DNA from: Kineosporia succinea
GTDB lineage: Bacteria > Actinomycetota > Actinomycetes > Actinomycetales > Kineosporiaceae
Direction: 5' to 3'
Length of the DNA: 64,000 nt
NCBI RefSeq assembly: GCF_030811555.1
Contig: NZ_JAUSQZ010000001.1
Location: 3,655,241 to 3,719,240, forward strand
Below, piece by piece: positions 19,503 to 34,334 of the stretch. The translations under genes and the position numbers were made by a program. Within the stretch, counting starts at the first letter, position 1; each line of letters opens with the position of its first letter. The notes under the pieces were generated by a model. That model worked only from the letters and a program-made list of their open reading frames with translations. It was not told where the DNA came from and made no database searches.

Positions 19503-19547
19503 GTGCCCCCGGCAGGATTCGAACCTGCGCTTTCGCCTCCGGAGGGC
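19503..19547 (-). repeat. attL: 45-bp copy of the tRNA-Arg 3' part
   Basis: This is identical to 34262-34306. On the minus strand it spells the anticodon stem-loop, variable region, T arm, acceptor 3' strand and discriminator A of tRNA-Arg(CCG), but lacks the D arm and 5' acceptor strand, so it is not a functional tRNA. It marks the left end of the integrated element. Confidence 0.93.
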
Positions 19548-20095: not shown

Positions 20096-20113
20096 CCCTT
20101 GCATTCGCGCTGG

Positions 20114-20152
20114 TCAGAGCGATTCGGGGACAGTGGGGACAGTGGGGACACT
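20114..20152 (-). pseudogene. Remnant of a RepA-like gene 3' end
   Basis: Read leftward, this encodes SVPTVPTVPESL and then TGA, with a TAG two codons upstream. It parallels the end of the intact RepA-like ATPase (PPVPGVPESL, TGA at 32440). A 17-bp exact match, GAATCGCTCTGACCAGC on its strand, spans the stop in both copies and imperfect similarity continues on both sides. It looks like the tail of a second, inverted rep gene left by rearrangement. Confidence 0.6.
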
Positions 20153-20577
20153 CAGCTACGACTGTCCCCACTGGGCAAACGTAGTGACCTCGTGTGTCGG
20201 CCCCCTTTCGTCTCGGCCCGTAGGAGTTCATAGGGCGGTCAGTCTCTGACAGACAATGTGCGGGTCGGCGTCGATGGATGAGGTCGTGTTTCCCTGACCT
20301 GATGCCCCGCCTCGGTGTTTTCAGAGAGGCCGAAGGGCTCGCTAAACCATGGCCGACTGGTCGCTGAGCCAAGCTATGCCCTGCTGCTACCGGAGAACTC
20401 ACTGGCGCTTCGAAGGCAGCAACCGTATTGCGCTAACACCCAACTTGCGGCAAAACCTCCCCCGGTCGGTAGCGTGTGAATATACTGCGCGAATCATAAC
20501 AACGATGTGAGGTGGCCATTGGGAATGCGAACAGGCACAGATCGTAAATGTGACGTACAGCCTAATGTGAGCCTTTA

Positions 20578-21525
20578 ATGAAGAGTCTTTACGTTCAAGC
20601 GCGGAGAATGCTTTTTCAAGTATCTTCTGCTGCCAAAATGATTATCTCTCGGTTTTTGAGTGAGCGGGCAGGGGACGCTCTCCCCCGTGAATTAGTGGCC
20701 TTAGCGTTGCTAGTCAGTGGTTTATCCGCCTGGCTGGCTTGGTACATCGATGGCGCCGACTTCCGCGGCTATGACGCGAGTGTCAACGTTCTGGCCAGCC
20801 TTATAGTCCTCGGTCCAGGTCTCCTGGTGACCAACATTTTCGTGAGAAATTGGCGTCTAAGGCGAGACGATGAAGAACTGGTTCGGGCGGTCGATCGTTA
20901 TATTTTAAATTTGATTTTTCTTCTGCGGTTGAATTTGCTAGAAGCGATGGCATCTCTTCGTACTATCGTCCCAGACGGGAGTTTGCCCCTTCGTAAGCAT
21001 GTCATGGCAGAGACGACGACGGGGAGGCCTGCCTCGTGGCACGAAGCTTTGGAGATGCTAGCCAGCGACTGGGCACAGGTGAGCCTTGTATTGCAAATCA
21101 TTGAAGATTCGGATTCGAGGCTGCTAATGGCCAGATGGAACCCTTTGTGCTATCTCCAAACGCCGAACAGCTTGAAGCATCTCTCTCGGTCACTAGGTCG
21201 CCATATGCCAGCAGATTTGATAGATATTCGTGTCGACCAGGTTGCAAAGTCCGCTGCGGATGTCAGAAATGATTTAGAGAACATTCGAGCTGATACTCAA
21301 CCCGACGAGGGGTCTCTACGGCGGTATCACTCGGGGGTTAACATCATAGTCGACGGTCTTCGTGGAATCGTGAGCGAGTTGCAGCGAGAGCTACCGCAAG
21401 TTCCATACGACTGGGACGTCTCCTCTGCTGGAGGAGATTGGGACTCTCAGCAGGGTGAGGCCTTACGCAAAATGACGCTCAAAAGTTTTGAAAGTTCGGA
21501 TCCCTCGTTAACCGAAATGATATGA
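20578..21525 (+). CDS. Low-G+C two-TM membrane protein, unrecognised (cargo gene A)
   Basis: 315 residues; no family recognised. Two hydrophobic helices lie near the N-terminus (about 39-57 and 70-88), separated by a short acidic loop (DGADFRGYDAS). A cytosolic helical region of about 225 residues follows, with an acidic C-terminal end. The DNA is far poorer in G+C than its neighbours (some 60-base stretches near 35%, overall about half by eye) and contains several TTA codons (residues 39, 42, 49 and 110), rare in this genome type and bldA-dependent in streptomycetes. It is followed 33 bp later by a second membrane-protein gene of the same composition. The pair is probably recently acquired cargo. 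No catalytic motif is visible; toxin, sensor or defence roles are guesses. Confidence 0.82.
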   Translation: MKSLYVQARRMLFQVSSAAKMIISRFLSERAGDALPRELVALALLVSGLSAWLAWYIDGADFRGYDASVNVLASLIVLGPGLLVTNIFVRNWRLRRDDEELVRAVDRYILNLIFLLRLNLLEAMASLRTIVPDGSLPLRKHVMAETTTGRPASWHEALEMLASDWAQVSLVLQIIEDSDSRLLMARWNPLCYLQTPNSLKHLSRSLGRHMPADLIDIRVDQVAKSAADVRNDLENIRADTQPDEGSLRRYHSGVNIIVDGLRGIVSELQRELPQVPYDWDVSSAGGDWDSQQGEALRKMTLKSFESSDPSLTEMI

Positions 21526-21558
21526 CTGTCTCAGACGCAAGCGTCTCCTGTATGTCGA

Positions 21559-23457
21559 GTGTCTCTAAATAGGGCGTATGTTCCGAGCTTTGGAAGGCGC
21601 GCGCAACTACTATCGGAACATGGAAGGATAGCCAGGATGATGCAGGCCATTCTAGGGCTGCAAAAGCGGCATGAAGCCGTGTATAGCAGTGCAGTTACCT
21701 ACTTCACCTATTCCTTTACCTTGAACTCTGATGGCGTTGATGTAGATTCCATTGCCAAAGCCCTATTGCAGAGCGGTCTAGCCGAGACAGCTATAGCTCC
21801 TGCTACGGATGAAGTTCGCGTAGCCGACTTCTTTGCAAATGTACAAGATGCAAGAAGGCAAGCCCGTTCGCTCGCGAGACTATCTGAGGCAGCGAGGAGC
21901 GGAAGCCTCACGGCTTTGGCAAGTTGGTCTCTCAAGAATCCTCTCTTTGCGCTGAGGATTCTCGGCAAGGTTTCTTTCAGCGCGTTCCGGCGCAGAGACG
22001 AAACGGAATCGCAGGCGGTGGAGGAGAAATCCATCAGCGAATCCATGGGTGAGGTCATCGACATGATTGACAGCTCGATGGACTCGATGCAGGAGACCCT
22101 TCGTACTATGGCGGATCGGGATCGCAGCTTCTATTCACCTGCGTATCTGGATTCGACACCTTTTGTGCGCTTGACCTTGCGACAGTTTGATTTTTCCCTA
22201 CCCCTCGCCGGCTTGAATGATGGCAATCAGTCTTTTGAAGGTGAAAGCCTCATGACGTTGTTAATTCATCGATCGGGGGTTGCTCTACTTACGGTCGCAA
22301 TACCGATGCCTGCAAGTCTGAATACCTCAGAGATGTTCGAAGTCAATAATGGCGCAAGGATGCGGTTTAAAACAGCAATCCTCAGTAGGGAAGTTCTCGA
22401 ATTTAGTTCGCGCCCTTTCAAACGCACGGCTGAAGATGTTCCGGGAACGTGGCTCCCAGAGACGACGAGAGGAACTACCTGGAAGTCTCTGGCTATTGAA
22501 GGGGGGCTTACCGTTGAAGATATTTTTAACTTCTACGCGTACGCTATACGGCACTCGTTGCGGTCGCCGTCTTCACCAGGTTATTTTATGTGCTATCACT
22601 CGCTGTGCGTTGATGCACTTGGTTGCTGTGCGAATAGGAAGCGGTGGCTTTCGCGACACAAGGCAGAATTGGCGGGCTTGGTCGGTCGTTTTGAGCGGTA
22701 CGGTAATGCCACTTCGGGTACCGTCGCCAACCTCCTCGCTAAGGATTGGTCTTTAACGGAAAGCGATTCGGTATACCTTAACCCGGGAAACATGCTTCGC
22801 TTGCACTGGAATTGGATCGACCATGGTCGGGAAGTATCCGAAGACTTGTGGACTCTTGCCGTTATCGACAGTTTCCTGCTCCGGTTCTCCCAGCTAGAGC
22901 AATTGAAAAGATTCTTCGATGCGAACTTGAATGTTCGGTCTTTGAATCAAGCGCAGTTGCGCATTGCTCTTGGGCTGCATGAATTTAGGAGTTCGGAAAT
23001 CGGATTTGGGTCGGCAAGCGACATGGTTAAATACTTGTCGGACTCGCAAGATCTGGACCGTTCATATCAGCATGTGCTAGATCGGATCTCGTCATTGAGC
23101 TCTTTGATTGAGGCACGTAGGGCATTGAGAAACGTTCGGCGCGACACCATCCTTACCGGGCTAGGATCTGTTGCTGCCGTATTCTTTGCGCTTCCTCCGA
23201 TCGATCAATCCATCGCTCTTCTAGTCTCTCTGCCGAGATCCGGTATAAACATTCTGGGCGGTTACGAGGGAGATGCCCACGCGCTTGCACTACGCGTTTA
23301 TCAGACGCTATTGGCGGTGCTTCTGATGGGATTTCTCGGATCACTTTTCAGATTTGCGTTCAAGAAAATTAAGAAACCACGGTTTCGGCGTCCCCTAAAA
23401 CGATTCGGTATTACTTGGCGGGGCCTGCCGCACAGGGAAGGCGATAAGCAAGGCTGA
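21559..23457 (+). CDS. Low-G+C large membrane protein, unrecognised (cargo gene B)
   Basis: 632 residues from a GTG start without a clear ribosome-binding site; the true start may lie slightly downstream. No family recognised. The long N-terminal part (about 1-525) is predicted soluble. It has a helical section near 150-190 (ESMGEVIDMIDSSMDSMQETL), a mixed beta section near 200-300 and a Cys cluster around CYHSLCVDALGCC. Two membrane helices lie at about 530-548 and 576-601, followed by a strongly basic tail (KKIKKPRFRRPLKRF), so both ends are probably cytoplasmic. Low G+C and TTA codons match gene A. It may form a membrane complex with A. A strong hairpin ends the unit. Its biochemical role cannot be inferred. 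Confidence 0.82.
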   Translation: MSLNRAYVPSFGRRAQLLSEHGRIARMMQAILGLQKRHEAVYSSAVTYFTYSFTLNSDGVDVDSIAKALLQSGLAETAIAPATDEVRVADFFANVQDARRQARSLARLSEAARSGSLTALASWSLKNPLFALRILGKVSFSAFRRRDETESQAVEEKSISESMGEVIDMIDSSMDSMQETLRTMADRDRSFYSPAYLDSTPFVRLTLRQFDFSLPLAGLNDGNQSFEGESLMTLLIHRSGVALLTVAIPMPASLNTSEMFEVNNGARMRFKTAILSREVLEFSSRPFKRTAEDVPGTWLPETTRGTTWKSLAIEGGLTVEDIFNFYAYAIRHSLRSPSSPGYFMCYHSLCVDALGCCANRKRWLSRHKAELAGLVGRFERYGNATSGTVANLLAKDWSLTESDSVYLNPGNMLRLHWNWIDHGREVSEDLWTLAVIDSFLLRFSQLEQLKRFFDANLNVRSLNQAQLRIALGLHEFRSSEIGFGSASDMVKYLSDSQDLDRSYQHVLDRISSLSSLIEARRALRNVRRDTILTGLGSVAAVFFALPPIDQSIALLVSLPRSGINILGGYEGDAHALALRVYQTLLAVLLMGFLGSLFRFAFKKIKKPRFRRPLKRFGITWRGLPHREGDKQG

Positions 23458-23493
23458 GTCAGGAGTGAAAACTATCAGCGAGTCGCCATACGA

Positions 23494-23545
23494 CTCCGGC
23501 CGCGTCCGGCGCTGGTAAGCCAACAGCGTGGGGACGCGGCCGGAG
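23494..23545 (+). terminator. Terminator hairpin after cargo gene B
   Basis: CTCCGGCCGCGTCC (23494-23507) pairs exactly with GGACGCGGCCGGAG (23532-23545); an inner CGCTG/CAGCG pair extends the structure. It lies 36 bp after the stop of gene B. Confidence 0.75.
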
Positions 23546-23700
23546 CCTGTTGCCGTGACGCGACTCGACGGAGGGAGTGTCAGCGCGCCACGATGGTTGC
23601 CCCCACGGTGCCAGGACCCCGTGTTCACCGGCACGGTGGGGGCGGTTGGTCGGGCAGTCCGGTTGGTTGCGAGCCGGTACGGGCTGCCCTGCTTGCTGGT

Positions 23701-27256: not shown

Positions 27257-29560
27257 ATGGACACCACTGGTGAAGCGAACGATCCCGCCCGGGACCCCGG
27301 TCGGGTTGCGGGACCGGCCTACGGCACCCCTGACCCCACCTTGCCCGCAATGGCTTTGGTGCGCCGGCTGACGACGGAACCGGACAACAACCCGGACACC
27401 GAGGCGGACATGCACCCGGACAATTCGAGTGCCGTCGGCTCCACTGCTGCGACCGGCGGGGAGGTCCTGGAAGGCGTGGTGTTGTCCCCGGTCCGTGAGG
27501 TGGCAGCGTCCGGTGCTGTGTCCGGGATCAAGGTGGTCCGGACGGTCATCACGAGTGATCGCAGCGTTGCTGCGTCGAAACTGGTTGCGCGTCATGCCCT
27601 CTACATCCCCGGTGGCGCTCTCAGCGTCACTCGGCGGTTGTGGGAGGCGGGCACGACGTCTCGTCATCAGCGAATGATGCGGCAGGCCGAGATGGCGGGC
27701 AATGCTGAGTTGCTGTCGGAGTGGGAGACGCGGGCCGAGGCGTTCCGCAACGCCCGCCACCGGCGAACGATGGACTGGATCGCCGCACCGTTCGTGCTGG
27801 CCAAGGGCTTGGTCGTGGGGACGTTCGCGCTGTTCTTCTTCCTTCTCGGTCTCGGTGTGCTGCTGGCGTGTGCCCGTAAGGATGTCGGGATGTTGCTGGG
27901 CCCCGTGAACGGGTTCCTGGCGCTGGTGAACTTCGTGGCCGTTGCGGTCACGGTGGCGTGGACGCCGGTGGTCATGGCGGCGCCGTGGGTGCTGCTGGTC
28001 GCGTTGTGGAATGAGGGACGCCGGCGGGCTCCGCTGCCGTCGTGGCTGGCCACCGCGTCTGAGGCGGACCTGGACGTCGCGATCGATGAGCACACGATCG
28101 CTCAGGCGCTCCTGGCCCTGCGGATCCCGCAGATCAAGGACGCGCTGAAAGTCGCTCCCTTGCAGTTCATCACTCCCGCCCGGCGCGACGGTCGCGGCAC
28201 GCACGCCGTGGTGCGACTGCCCGCCGGCGTCACCGCGGAGCAGATCGCCACGCGCCGGGCTCCGTTGGCCGGCGGGCTCTACCGGCAGGCCAAGGAGGTG
28301 TGGCCGACCACCGGCAGCGAGGCCGGCATCCTCGATCTGTGGGTGGCTGACAAAGGCGCACTGGCTGAGGGCGCGGGGGAGTACCCGCTGCTGGCCGAGG
28401 GCAAGTGCGACGTGTTCAAGGGCGTCCCGTTCGGCAAGACCCTGCGAGGCATTCCGGTAGTGATGCCGGTGATGGAACGCAACACGATCGGGGGAGGGAT
28501 GCCCGGTCAGGGGAAGTCGACCTCGGCCCGGGTGGCGTTCGCCGGCGCTGCCCTGGACATCACGGCGGAGCTTCGGATCTGGGTGCCGGATGCGAACTTC
28601 GACTTCGAGGCGTTCGCGCCGAGGTGTTCCCGGTACGTGATGGGCGCCGAGGATGAACGGCTAGAGGAGATCGTTCAGGACCTGCGGGACCTTCACGCCG
28701 AGGTTCAGTCGCGTGGCGAGCTGCTGATCAAGTACCAGATCCCGGCCGTCACGCGGGAGCTGGCCAGCAAGGATGTCGGGCTGCATCCGCTGCTGTGCCT
28801 GCTGGAAGAGGCGCACGTGCTCTTCCAGCACCCGGAGCTCGGCAAGGAGGCGCAGAAGCTCGCGATCGACATCGTTCGTCTCGGCCGCAAGCGGGGCATT
28901 CACCTGTTCGTCTCGACCCAGGCACCGACGAAGGACTCGATTCCCCGTGACGTGACCCGGAACTGTTCCAACGGGATCGCTTTCGCCGTCGGCGACCACG
29001 TGGCCAATGACGCACTCCTCGGCCAGGGCGCCTACCGGGGCGGGCACCGGGCGACCGAGCTGATCCCGGGCACGGACCGGGGAACCGCTGTGGTCAAGGG
29101 ATTCTCGGGTCAGCGCTCCGAGATCGTTCAGGTGTACTTCATCGAGATCGACAAGGCTAACGACCAGATCACCCCGATCATCACCCGCTCCCTCAAGCTC
29201 ATCGCCGACCGAGGCCGGCCCGTTCCCGGCACCGGCCGCACCCGAACAGTCGAGAATCGGCCGGCCACGCGGGATCTGCTGGCCGACCTGGACCAGGTGC
29301 TCGGCGCCGACCCGGTGCGGGTGGCTGATGTGCCGGCGCTGCTGGCTCGGGCGTTCCCCGCGTGGCGTGCCTACCGGGACCTGACCGGCAAGGACCTGCG
29401 GGCGATCCTGGCCACCGATCACGGGATCAAGGTCCCCTCGACCGGCAACCGCTACCCCCTCGACCCGGCCACCGTCCGTGACGCCCTGGACCGCCGCCCC
29501 GATCCCGAAACCGCCCCGGACGAGGACGACGGCGACGGGCCGGCCCTGCTGGCCAGTTAG
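27257..29560 (+). CDS. TraB/FtsK-SpoIIIE-like DNA translocase
   Basis: 767 residues. Two clusters of membrane helices lie at about 180-205 and 218-250. A large cytosolic ATPase follows, with Walker A GGMPGQGKST (413-422) and Walker B in LLCLLEEAHVL. The C-terminal region has winged-helix-like character (DLTGKDLRAILATDHGIKVPSTGNRYPLDPATV). In AICEs and Streptomyces plasmids this single septal-type motor transfers double-stranded DNA between cells, recognising cis sites through its C-terminal domain. GGAAGGGG precedes the ATG. It is the only transfer motor on the element. A hairpin and a 200-bp non-coding region follow. Confidence 0.92.
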   Translation: MDTTGEANDPARDPGRVAGPAYGTPDPTLPAMALVRRLTTEPDNNPDTEADMHPDNSSAVGSTAATGGEVLEGVVLSPVREVAASGAVSGIKVVRTVITSDRSVAASKLVARHALYIPGGALSVTRRLWEAGTTSRHQRMMRQAEMAGNAELLSEWETRAEAFRNARHRRTMDWIAAPFVLAKGLVVGTFALFFFLLGLGVLLACARKDVGMLLGPVNGFLALVNFVAVAVTVAWTPVVMAAPWVLLVALWNEGRRRAPLPSWLATASEADLDVAIDEHTIAQALLALRIPQIKDALKVAPLQFITPARRDGRGTHAVVRLPAGVTAEQIATRRAPLAGGLYRQAKEVWPTTGSEAGILDLWVADKGALAEGAGEYPLLAEGKCDVFKGVPFGKTLRGIPVVMPVMERNTIGGGMPGQGKSTSARVAFAGAALDITAELRIWVPDANFDFEAFAPRCSRYVMGAEDERLEEIVQDLRDLHAEVQSRGELLIKYQIPAVTRELASKDVGLHPLLCLLEEAHVLFQHPELGKEAQKLAIDIVRLGRKRGIHLFVSTQAPTKDSIPRDVTRNCSNGIAFAVGDHVANDALLGQGAYRGGHRATELIPGTDRGTAVVKGFSGQRSEIVQVYFIEIDKANDQITPIITRSLKLIADRGRPVPGTGRTRTVENRPATRDLLADLDQVLGADPVRVADVPALLARAFPAWRAYRDLTGKDLRAILATDHGIKVPSTGNRYPLDPATVRDALDRRPDPETAPDEDDGDGPALLAS

Positions 29561-31340: not shown

Positions 31341-32440
31341 ACGCCAACGGTCCGGTGCCGGACGACCAGGGCCAGCCTCCGCAGAGCGGCCGGCGTCTGC
31401 AAGCCGTGAGCCCCAACAGTCCGAGCGTGTTCCGGCCTCGGCTGTGGACGGCTGACGAGGTGATGGATACCGAGTTCCCGCCCCCGAAGTGGGCCGTTCC
31501 CGGGCTGATCTGTGAGGGCGTGTCCCTGCTGGCCGGCCCGCCCAAGGTGGCGAAGTCCTGGCTGCTGCTGTCGACGTGCCTCGCGGTGGCCTCGGGCGGA
31601 AAGGCGCTGGGCTCGATCCCGGTTCGTCAGGGCCCGGTGCTCTATCTGGCTCTGGAAGACACCCCGCGCCGACTGAAGTCCCGCATGGGCCAACTGCTCG
31701 GCGATCGGCCGGCCCCACCCGGTCTGCACCTGGCGACCGAGTGGCCGACCATGCCCGCCGGCGGAGACGTCGCGATCGCTGAATGGCTCGACCAGCACCC
31801 CGACGCCCGGATGATCGGTATCGACGTGTTCGCCAAGGTCCGAGGCCCGGCCTCACCGTCCCTGTCGGCTTACGACGCTGACTACGCGGCGGTGGGACGG
31901 ATCAAGAAGATCGCCGATCACTACGGCATCGCGATCGTGCTGATCCACCACGTCCGCAAGGCCGGAAGTGATGACTTCCTCCAAGAAGTCAGCGGCACCA
32001 ACGGCATTGCCGGCGCCGCCGACGCAACCCTGATCCTCAAGCGTCCCCGAGGGCAGGCTGACGGAACACTCTCGATCACCGGCCGAGACGTCGAAGAGGC
32101 CGAGATCGCCCTCACGCACGATCAGAACACCGGGCATTGGCTGAAGAACGACCGGCCGGCCGATGAAGTCAGCCTCGGCGACACCCGCGCATCCATCCTG
32201 AAAACCTTGCGGGAGAGCGCGAAACCGCTCGGTCCCACGGCAGTCGCCGACATCACCGGGGCCAAGGTCGAGACGGTGAAGAAGACCATGCAGCGCATGA
32301 GCGACGCCGGCCAGATCTGGCCGGCCACCGGAGGCAAGTACACCGCTCCCATGCCGGGATCGGCCCCCTTCCCGGGCATCGACGGGGACACCCCGACCAG
32401 GGGTGTCCCTCCTGTCCCCGGTGTCCCTGAATCGCTCTGA
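31337..32440 (+). CDS. RepA-like AAA (RecA-fold) ATPase for element replication
   Basis: 367 residues. The RecA/DnaB-type ATPase core has a variant Walker A AGPPKVAKSW (66-75), YLALEDTPRRLKSRM, Walker B IGIDVFAKV and the sensor IVLIHHVRKAGSDDFLQEVSGTNGIAGAAD. These are typical of AAA_25/RepA helicase-like proteins of plasmids. A winged-helix-like end (RASILKTLRESAKPLGPTAVADITGAKVETVKKTMQRM) suits DNA binding. It overlaps the primase stop by 4 nt, so the two are made together. The C-terminal TPTRGVPPVPGVPESL is Pro/Val repeat-rich. The gene's 3' end has an inverted partial copy at 20114-20152. Confidence 0.88.
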   Translation: MNANGPVPDDQGQPPQSGRRLQAVSPNSPSVFRPRLWTADEVMDTEFPPPKWAVPGLICEGVSLLAGPPKVAKSWLLLSTCLAVASGGKALGSIPVRQGPVLYLALEDTPRRLKSRMGQLLGDRPAPPGLHLATEWPTMPAGGDVAIAEWLDQHPDARMIGIDVFAKVRGPASPSLSAYDADYAAVGRIKKIADHYGIAIVLIHHVRKAGSDDFLQEVSGTNGIAGAADATLILKRPRGQADGTLSITGRDVEEAEIALTHDQNTGHWLKNDRPADEVSLGDTRASILKTLRESAKPLGPTAVADITGAKVETVKKTMQRMSDAGQIWPATGGKYTAPMPGSAPFPGIDGDTPTRGVPPVPGVPESL

Positions 32441-32445
32441 CCAGC
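32429..32445. repeat. 17-bp inverted partner of 20109-20125
   Basis: GAATCGCTCTGACCAGC here is the exact reverse complement of 20109-20125, about 12.3 kb away. Both copies span a rep-type stop codon and are flanked by GGGGACA/TGTCCCC motifs. Confidence 0.8.
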
Positions 32446-32534
32446 ACGAACGTCCTTGAAAGCGGGGACACCCCCTCGGAACTGTCCCCGTCTGGCACGG
32501 CACCATCCCGCATCGGTGATCAAAGGAGCCACCC

Positions 32535-34259: not shown

Positions 34260-34334
34260 TGGTGCCCCCGGCAGGATTCGAACCTGCGCTTTCGCCTCCG
34301 GAGGGCGACGCTCTATCCCCTGAGCTACGGGGGC
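34260..34334 (-). tRNA. tRNA-Arg (anticodon CCG)
   Basis: Read leftward from 34334: acceptor GCCCCCG, D arm GCTC/GAGC, anticodon stem TCGCC/GGCGA with loop CTCCGGA (anticodon CCG, decoding CGG), T arm GCAGG-TTCGAAT-CCTGC, acceptor CGGGGGC, discriminator A at 34263 and an encoded CCA at 34262-34260. It is complete. Its 3' part is the attR core. The flanking element DNA supplies the CCA. Confidence 0.95.
34262..34306 (-). repeat. attR: 45-bp direct repeat within tRNA-Arg
   Basis: Identical over 45 bp to 19503-19547. It runs from the anticodon stem to just past the discriminator base, as expected for crossover in the anticodon loop region by a tyrosine integrase. Confidence 0.93.

Follow-up and report, generated by a model that had tools for sequence, protein, structure and literature searches.

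What do two adjacent genes of conspicuously low G + C content do on the mobile element that carries them? The question is raised by genes A and B in the analyzed window, a stretch of 64,000 nucleotides from Kineosporia succinea. The initial annotation had described two neighboring rightward genes with products of 315 and 632 amino acids and a 33-bp gap, and both genes lie on the forward strand with exactly these lengths and this spacing (Table 1). It had also pointed to a far lower G + C content than in the surroundings and to several TTA codons, and both features were confirmed. The G + C content over A and B is 0.513, whereas the 1,107 stretches of the same length elsewhere in the window all have at least 0.644 (the minimum), and the only 500-bp bins below 0.56 (6 of 128 in the window) all begin between positions 20501 and 23001, over the two genes. 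Their third codon positions have G + C contents of 0.535 (A) and 0.537 (B) compared to 0.80–0.93 in seven other genes, and A contains seven and B two TTA codons, whereas each of the seven other genes has none or one. The low-G + C two-gene unit is real.

The carrier is a 14.8-kb element bounded by a 45-bp direct repeat and located in a tRNA-Arg(ccg) gene. Its genes include matches to Prim-Pol (E = 3.1e-44), AAA_25 (1.2e-34), and GntR (1.2e-19) with UTRA (1.5e-25), in addition to a GNAT gene and a candidate tyrosine integrase, whose Phage_integrase match (E = 6.3e-4, 20 bits) falls under the cut-off of 27.1. The gene called traB here by analogy, which was identified as a transfer gene by tblastn, matched 31 plasmid records, 27 of them from Streptomyces, and several of the 10 matches listed are annotated as FtsK/SpoIIIE. 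With an att repeat in a tRNA gene, an FtsK-like transfer gene, a replication gene and a regulator, the element is AICE-like. The A–B unit had been placed between the left attachment arm and the regulator, which is where it lies, but the GNAT gene intervenes between B and the GntR regulator.

Table 1. Features of the element and of its cargo slot (window coordinates)
Feature	Position	Strand	Description
attL	19503..19547	.	Left copy of the 45-bp direct repeat; 100% identical to 34262-34306
Left slot border, ~45-bp element	20107..20151	+	Similar sequence (blastn) flanks the cargo of L074, L075, and L076 on the left
A–B leader region	20152..20577	.	G + C 0.57; blastn similarity to L074, L075, and L076 stops at the border element
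Gene A	20578-21525	+	ATG start, 315 aa
Gene B	21559-23457	+	GTG start, 632 aa
Backbone hairpin, right slot border	23494..23545 (approximate)	+	Common to L075; fold of 23455-23570, z -4.7
Transfer gene	27257-29560		No Pfam match at E ≤ 0.01; tblastn matches to plasmid genes
attR	34262..34306	.	Inside tRNA-Arg(ccg) 34260-34334

The status of A and B as cargo was assessed by comparison with three elements of the same genus (L074, L075, and L076), whose transfer genes are 78–88% identical to that of the window. The backbone of L075 is 77–82% identical to that of the window element; homology ends at position 20151 with a 45-bp match (82%) and resumes at 23487 (81%), and the intervening part of the window (20152-23486) is replaced in L075 by an unrelated low-G + C unit. 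The A–B unit thus is exchanged as one block, which supports the assignment of the pair to the cargo of the element. Two proteins are encoded by the unit in L075, one of 713 aa that resembles HATPase_c weakly (E = 0.0047, short of the cut-off) and a membrane protein of 414 aa. An IEIK stretch lies near the C terminus of the HATPase-like protein (L075:5118-8626). L074 has its left side in common with the window over 726 bp, and its backbone resumes only at the position equivalent to 25667, past the GntR gene. The cargo of L074 includes a 1139-aa NNH1-NACHT protein (NACHT, E = 9.3e-19) with an LRR-like end, for which the LRR models remained under their cut-offs and phmmer gave a match of 1e-8 to a PDB chain, with chains named as LRR from 2e-5. 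Bacterial NACHT proteins defend against phages according to the accessible part of PMC12169576. In L076 a 410-aa gene was found whose TPR match is weak and does not reach the cut-off (E = 0.0023). TPR-like genes related at about 85% were observed near traB-like genes at L076:1305-2537, L087:5175-6407, and L091:4591-5914, in the last case as two open reading frames (ORFs).

Both borders of the slot belong to recognizable sequence elements. The ~45-bp element at the left border has an inverted copy at about 32400-32452, after the AAA gene and before the integrase; copies of its motif are located at 20112-20132 (forward) and 32422-32442 (reverse), two in the window compared to 0.01 expected. Both ~45-bp places were found by blastn in L074, L075, and L076, and a stricter motif search missed the left copy of L075 and detected one copy in L087. 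The element may serve as an origin or in transfer, or it may be the site at which recombination exchanges the cargo. On the right, the pair had been credited with a terminator of its own. This did not hold, since the strong hairpin downstream of B is also present in L075 beside different cargo and therefore constitutes a border of the backbone rather than a feature of the cassette; it possibly serves as a shared terminator.

The proposed lack of a known family for the two proteins was supported. Searches of Pfam, NCBIfam, and PADLOC 2.0 yielded no model match to A or B at E ≤ 10, an ApeA or HEPN domain was not found in either protein with Pfam, and the PHROGs matches to A and B (E = 0.06–0.67) were treated as composition matches. 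PADLOC likewise had no match to any of the nine rows of the B alignment, which counts against a defense function. Weak Pfam matches of B relatives (best E = 0.085) and a PDB profile match to TMHC2_E over the membrane-helix region (E = 0.0087) were also regarded as composition matches. Hydropathy analysis of A identified the two N-terminal segments described previously (35-53, score 1.47; 71-89, 2.21), but a further segment at 109-127 (1.68) scores above the first one, and the number of membrane helices may be three; a helical part follows the hydrophobic N-terminal segments in a low-confidence model. The layout ascribed to B agrees with its hydropathy profile, in which a soluble part precedes two hydrophobic C-terminal segments (530-548 and 583-601) and a basic tail; another hydrophobic stretch (230-248) lies inside strands of the low-confidence model. 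Single-sequence AF2 models, which were calculated for each protein singly, reached pLDDT values of 43 (A) and 37 (B) and were useless for fold assignment. Because these models are too poor, it is the hydropathy that suggests membrane action.

The distribution of B was determined in plasmids, phages, and genomes. With tblastn, relatives were detected in 2 of 72,556 plasmid records, both from Rhodococcus (25.0 and 23.4% identity over 83 and 81%) and both on plasmids typed as non-mobilizable. A profile built from the window protein and these two relatives retrieved B relatives in 5 of 401 genomes of one family, taken as Mycobacteriaceae-like because its loci carry Rv3651-like and ESX-1-associated genes. 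Among 395 other genomes of the phylum of the window and 147 other relatives the profile found no match, only the own genome being recovered, and it had none in 318 genomes of the order of genome G432; the family was not found in 50,697 phage records. Short-peptide pattern scans of genome and viral contigs revealed no B relative either, which is a weak negative. One candidate (G055/L002; E = 4.9e-4, 18 bits, 85 residues with two internal stops) was rejected since long ORFs, read by eye as ordinary chromosomal genes, cover the place. Identity to the window protein is 19–24% in the longer alignment rows and 17% in L017, a C-terminal fragment, and about 19–25% overall with the plasmid matches. In one genome the relative sits on two contig ends (L015 and L016), which are probably two parts of one gene.

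The conserved parts of B comprise a block at the N terminus, the region around H-x-S-G in the middle, and, before the two hydrophobic segments, a stretch with RR at its end. The motif P-x-C-x-C-x8-H is complete in all six relatives that span the place and incomplete in the B protein of the window. Comparison of L013 with its relative in another genus gave dN/dS ratios of 0.149 and 0.153 for the two fragments compared; for the Rhodococcus pair dS was not usable. The G + C content of B is below that of its locus in all eight relative loci. The family of B is conserved, and members of it reside on mobile elements.

Protein A has a different distribution. It was not found in the seven other records carrying B (best E = 0.34), and searches of the 72,556 plasmid records, the 50,697 phage records, and 295 further genomes from the class were likewise negative; a short-peptide pattern scan of viral contigs, a weak negative, and a draw of six genomes, an uninformative sample, gave no relative. 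As A was not found in the other B-carrying records, the two genes do not form an obligate pair, and the co-occurrence survey did not support one. The DNA common to L013 and L015/L016, which represent two genera, consists of B and about 225 bp upstream only (82–88% identical), which fits movement of B alone. We infer that B is the core and A an accessory of the unit.

The neighborhoods of the B relatives agree in part with the proposed location at mobile-element sites: besides the two plasmids, in L014 an integrase is located at a distance of 58 bp from the relative, and HTH genes and, nearby, a tRNA-Phe are also present (an att duplication beside it was not found with 18-base exact words). A recognized immune-type gene is directly adjacent, among the scanned neighbors, in only one of the seven records, however, and this counts against a defense function. 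This record is L012, where a gene of 0.56 G + C follows B on the same strand after 44 bp and matches ApeA_NTD1 in Pfam (E = 2.2e-10, positions 3-108 of 271). Its RNTMAH motif, read by eye, fits the HEPN Rx4H pattern, and ApeA-NTD1 is listed as fused to HEPN in the accessible part of PMC3710099; an ApeA match to this neighbor was found neither in PADLOC, which gave only PDC-S58 (E = 0.0038), nor in the PDB. A gene with a metallo-beta-lactamase fold and a resemblance to LmuA/Avs1a models is located about 3.4 kb away in L013, past a resolvase and an IS481-type transposase, and given this distance and the intervening genes it is weaker evidence for an immune neighbor than that of L012. The same gene overlaps a gene for a small membrane protein (L013:1576-3649), with which it may form a defense pair. 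No immune gene was recognized among the scanned neighbors in L004, L015/L016, and L017; the neighbors in L003 were judged from the record annotation only.

To place the slot in a wider context, 11 of the 13 non-self traB-like matches in the genus were examined, omitting two weak ones (E = 7e-6 and 1e-4). Besides the three elements with transfer genes at 78–88% identity, these comprise eight loci at 28–36%, which offer a comparable place rather than a proven same slot. Low-G + C ORFs (at least 150 aa, below 0.56) were present upstream of traB in 9 of the 11 loci, a count made on stretches that reach mostly upstream of traB, so that "upstream" is partly by choice, and without a control of random low-G + C ORFs. 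Their distance to traB is 3.6–8.4 kb in eight loci and 9.7–10.8 kb in L091; L076 and L087 have only the 410-aa gene (0.59 G + C). Strongly recognized immune domains occur in 2 of the 11 loci, which counts against a defense function, and the cargo of L085, a more distant element, is a TIR protein (phmmer, 1.9e-14). Outside the genus, and not included in the 11, L090 was without a low-G + C ORF, and neither of the two in L089 looks immune-related. A comparable low-G + C slot was not seen at five loci with transfer-gene relatives from IMG/VR, of which two are uninformative since they extend only about 1.3 kb upstream of the gene.

Several further observations were made at these loci. Low-G + C cargo lies upstream of traB-like genes at L083:9041-10895, L084:10014-12238, L086:6601-8594, and L088:10812-12344, and three of these four unassigned units include membrane proteins. 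About 10 kb upstream of its traB-like gene, L091 has a DUF262-like gene (weak, E = 0.0044) and then two small genes in which Rx4H motifs were recognized by eye (L091:1582-3913); a search with one of these small proteins gave no support. A P-loop NTPase in L082 and a PIN-like protein in L088, both noted by eye, were unsupported by PDB searches, and a 400-aa protein in L084 with the layout of B gave only a blastp match over 55 residues (E = 0.044), for which hhalign offered no support.

The reading that we prefer, with a probability of roughly one half, is that A and B form an exchangeable unit at a cargo slot where this AICE family tends to carry immune genes, with B as a membrane-anchored abortive-infection protein and A as its modulator. 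The membrane-acting defense role suggested by the initial annotation gains support from the NACHT protein of L074, the TIR protein of L085, and the ApeA_NTD1 neighbor in L012, but is opposed by the empty PADLOC searches and by the low share of immune loci in the survey. To the computed results, which are unit exchange, the B family, selection, and hydropathy, this reading adds three points that we infer, namely the sensing of infection, the action on the membrane, and what A contributes. The cytosolic part of B would sense infection, or a partner would hold B off, and the C-terminal helices would then permeabilize or depolarize the inner membrane, so that the phage is stopped along with the infected cell. 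In the window element, A would dock to B or modulate its activity, being probably co-transcribed with it and likewise located in the membrane; elsewhere B may act alone or beside a HEPN-type gene. A more far-reaching version, which we put forward only tentatively, regards B as a new actinobacterial membrane immune family, a one-gene cassette with varied partners (A or an ApeA-type HEPN gene), and the slot of this AICE lineage as a dock for interchangeable immune genes.

Other explanations account for parts of the data. A and B could be independent cargo genes that merely happen to be adjacent, with only B of importance; A is without a detectable relative and B occurs without A, but the 33-bp gap, the common strand and composition, and the replacement of both genes as one block make this unlikely. 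An addiction pair of the toxin-antitoxin kind, in which B would be a membrane toxin neutralized by A and the element would be kept in its host, suits two adjacent genes on a mobile element whose products both have hydrophobic segments. It is improbable given that A was not found in any of the seven other B records and that L013 and L015/L016 have only B and its upstream ~225 bp in common. Entry exclusion, also suggested initially, would have the membrane proteins A and B block a second copy of the same AICE. The hydrophobic segments of both and the FtsK-like transfer gene of the carrier fit such a function, which would be expected to track the transfer genes, but sister elements with the same backbone hold unrelated cargo in the slot, and B relatives reside on two plasmids typed as non-mobilizable and beside the integrase of L014; we therefore disfavor exclusion as very improbable.

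Finally, B could be an ion channel distantly resembling CorA that serves a physiological function (metal or osmotic). It has the layout of a soluble part, a long helix, two C-terminal hydrophobic segments and a basic tail, and the domain order and tail resemble those of CorA proteins including the CRISPR-linked CorA activated by SAM-AMP, as far as these are described in the accessible parts of PMC10600005 and PMC12255297. However, neither B nor its relatives match CorA in Pfam, the B family lacks profile similarity and a GMN motif (absent after the first C-terminal helix from all eight rows, of nine, that span the place, by eye), and hhalign against 13 CorA proteins gave E-values of 0.51 and 0.21 for two B alignments and 0.21 for the C-terminal part, values that do not clearly improve on the 0.35 and 0.25 of reversed controls. 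The CorA set was derived from 27 fetched loci, of which 22 yielded a central ORF and 13 had enough mutual similarity to be kept. On the basis of these comparisons with reversed controls, membership of B in the CorA/MIT group was rejected, and a channel role of this kind is highly improbable.

Two-helix membrane effectors of abortive-infection systems include CBASS Cap14/Cap15 and retron Ec48. The present unit is similar to these in its soluble part plus two membrane helices and in its carriage by a mobile element, but differs in that no PADLOC model matches A or B. For the slot, a parallel exists in the antiviral hotspots described for P2-like phages and for P4-like satellites, which likewise hold diverse interchangeable immune genes in a fixed position (PMC9122126, accessible part); here, in contrast, the carrier is AICE-like and an immune identity was recognized for a minority of the cargo. 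A survey of Streptomyces AICEs likewise found different cargo within one family, including predicted protection systems (R-M, AIPR), and the accessible part of that article makes no mention of a fixed low-G + C slot, of NACHT or TIR cargo, or of the A and B proteins (PMC9513070). AICEs with variable and partly predicted anti-phage cargo and antiviral hotspots thus are already described in what is accessible of PMC9513070 and PMC9122126. A literature search by accession and locus tag of one Rhodococcus relative retrieved no paper on these proteins, and searches on AICEs with immune terms and on conjugative-element hotspots listed no article whose title concerns this slot. Both the B family and the proposed immune slot appear to be novel.

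According to the accessible part of PMC10482375, most of the defense systems detected are either missing from high-G + C actinobacteria or less common there than in other bacteria. If the preferred reading is true, it would provide a role, open to testing, for a family of proteins to which none of the four family libraries searched gave a significant match. Low-G + C genes upstream of traB would then become a rule for finding defense systems in high-G + C actinobacteria, and under the more far-reaching version additional undescribed systems could come from the unassigned cargo of L075, L083, L084, L086, and L088.
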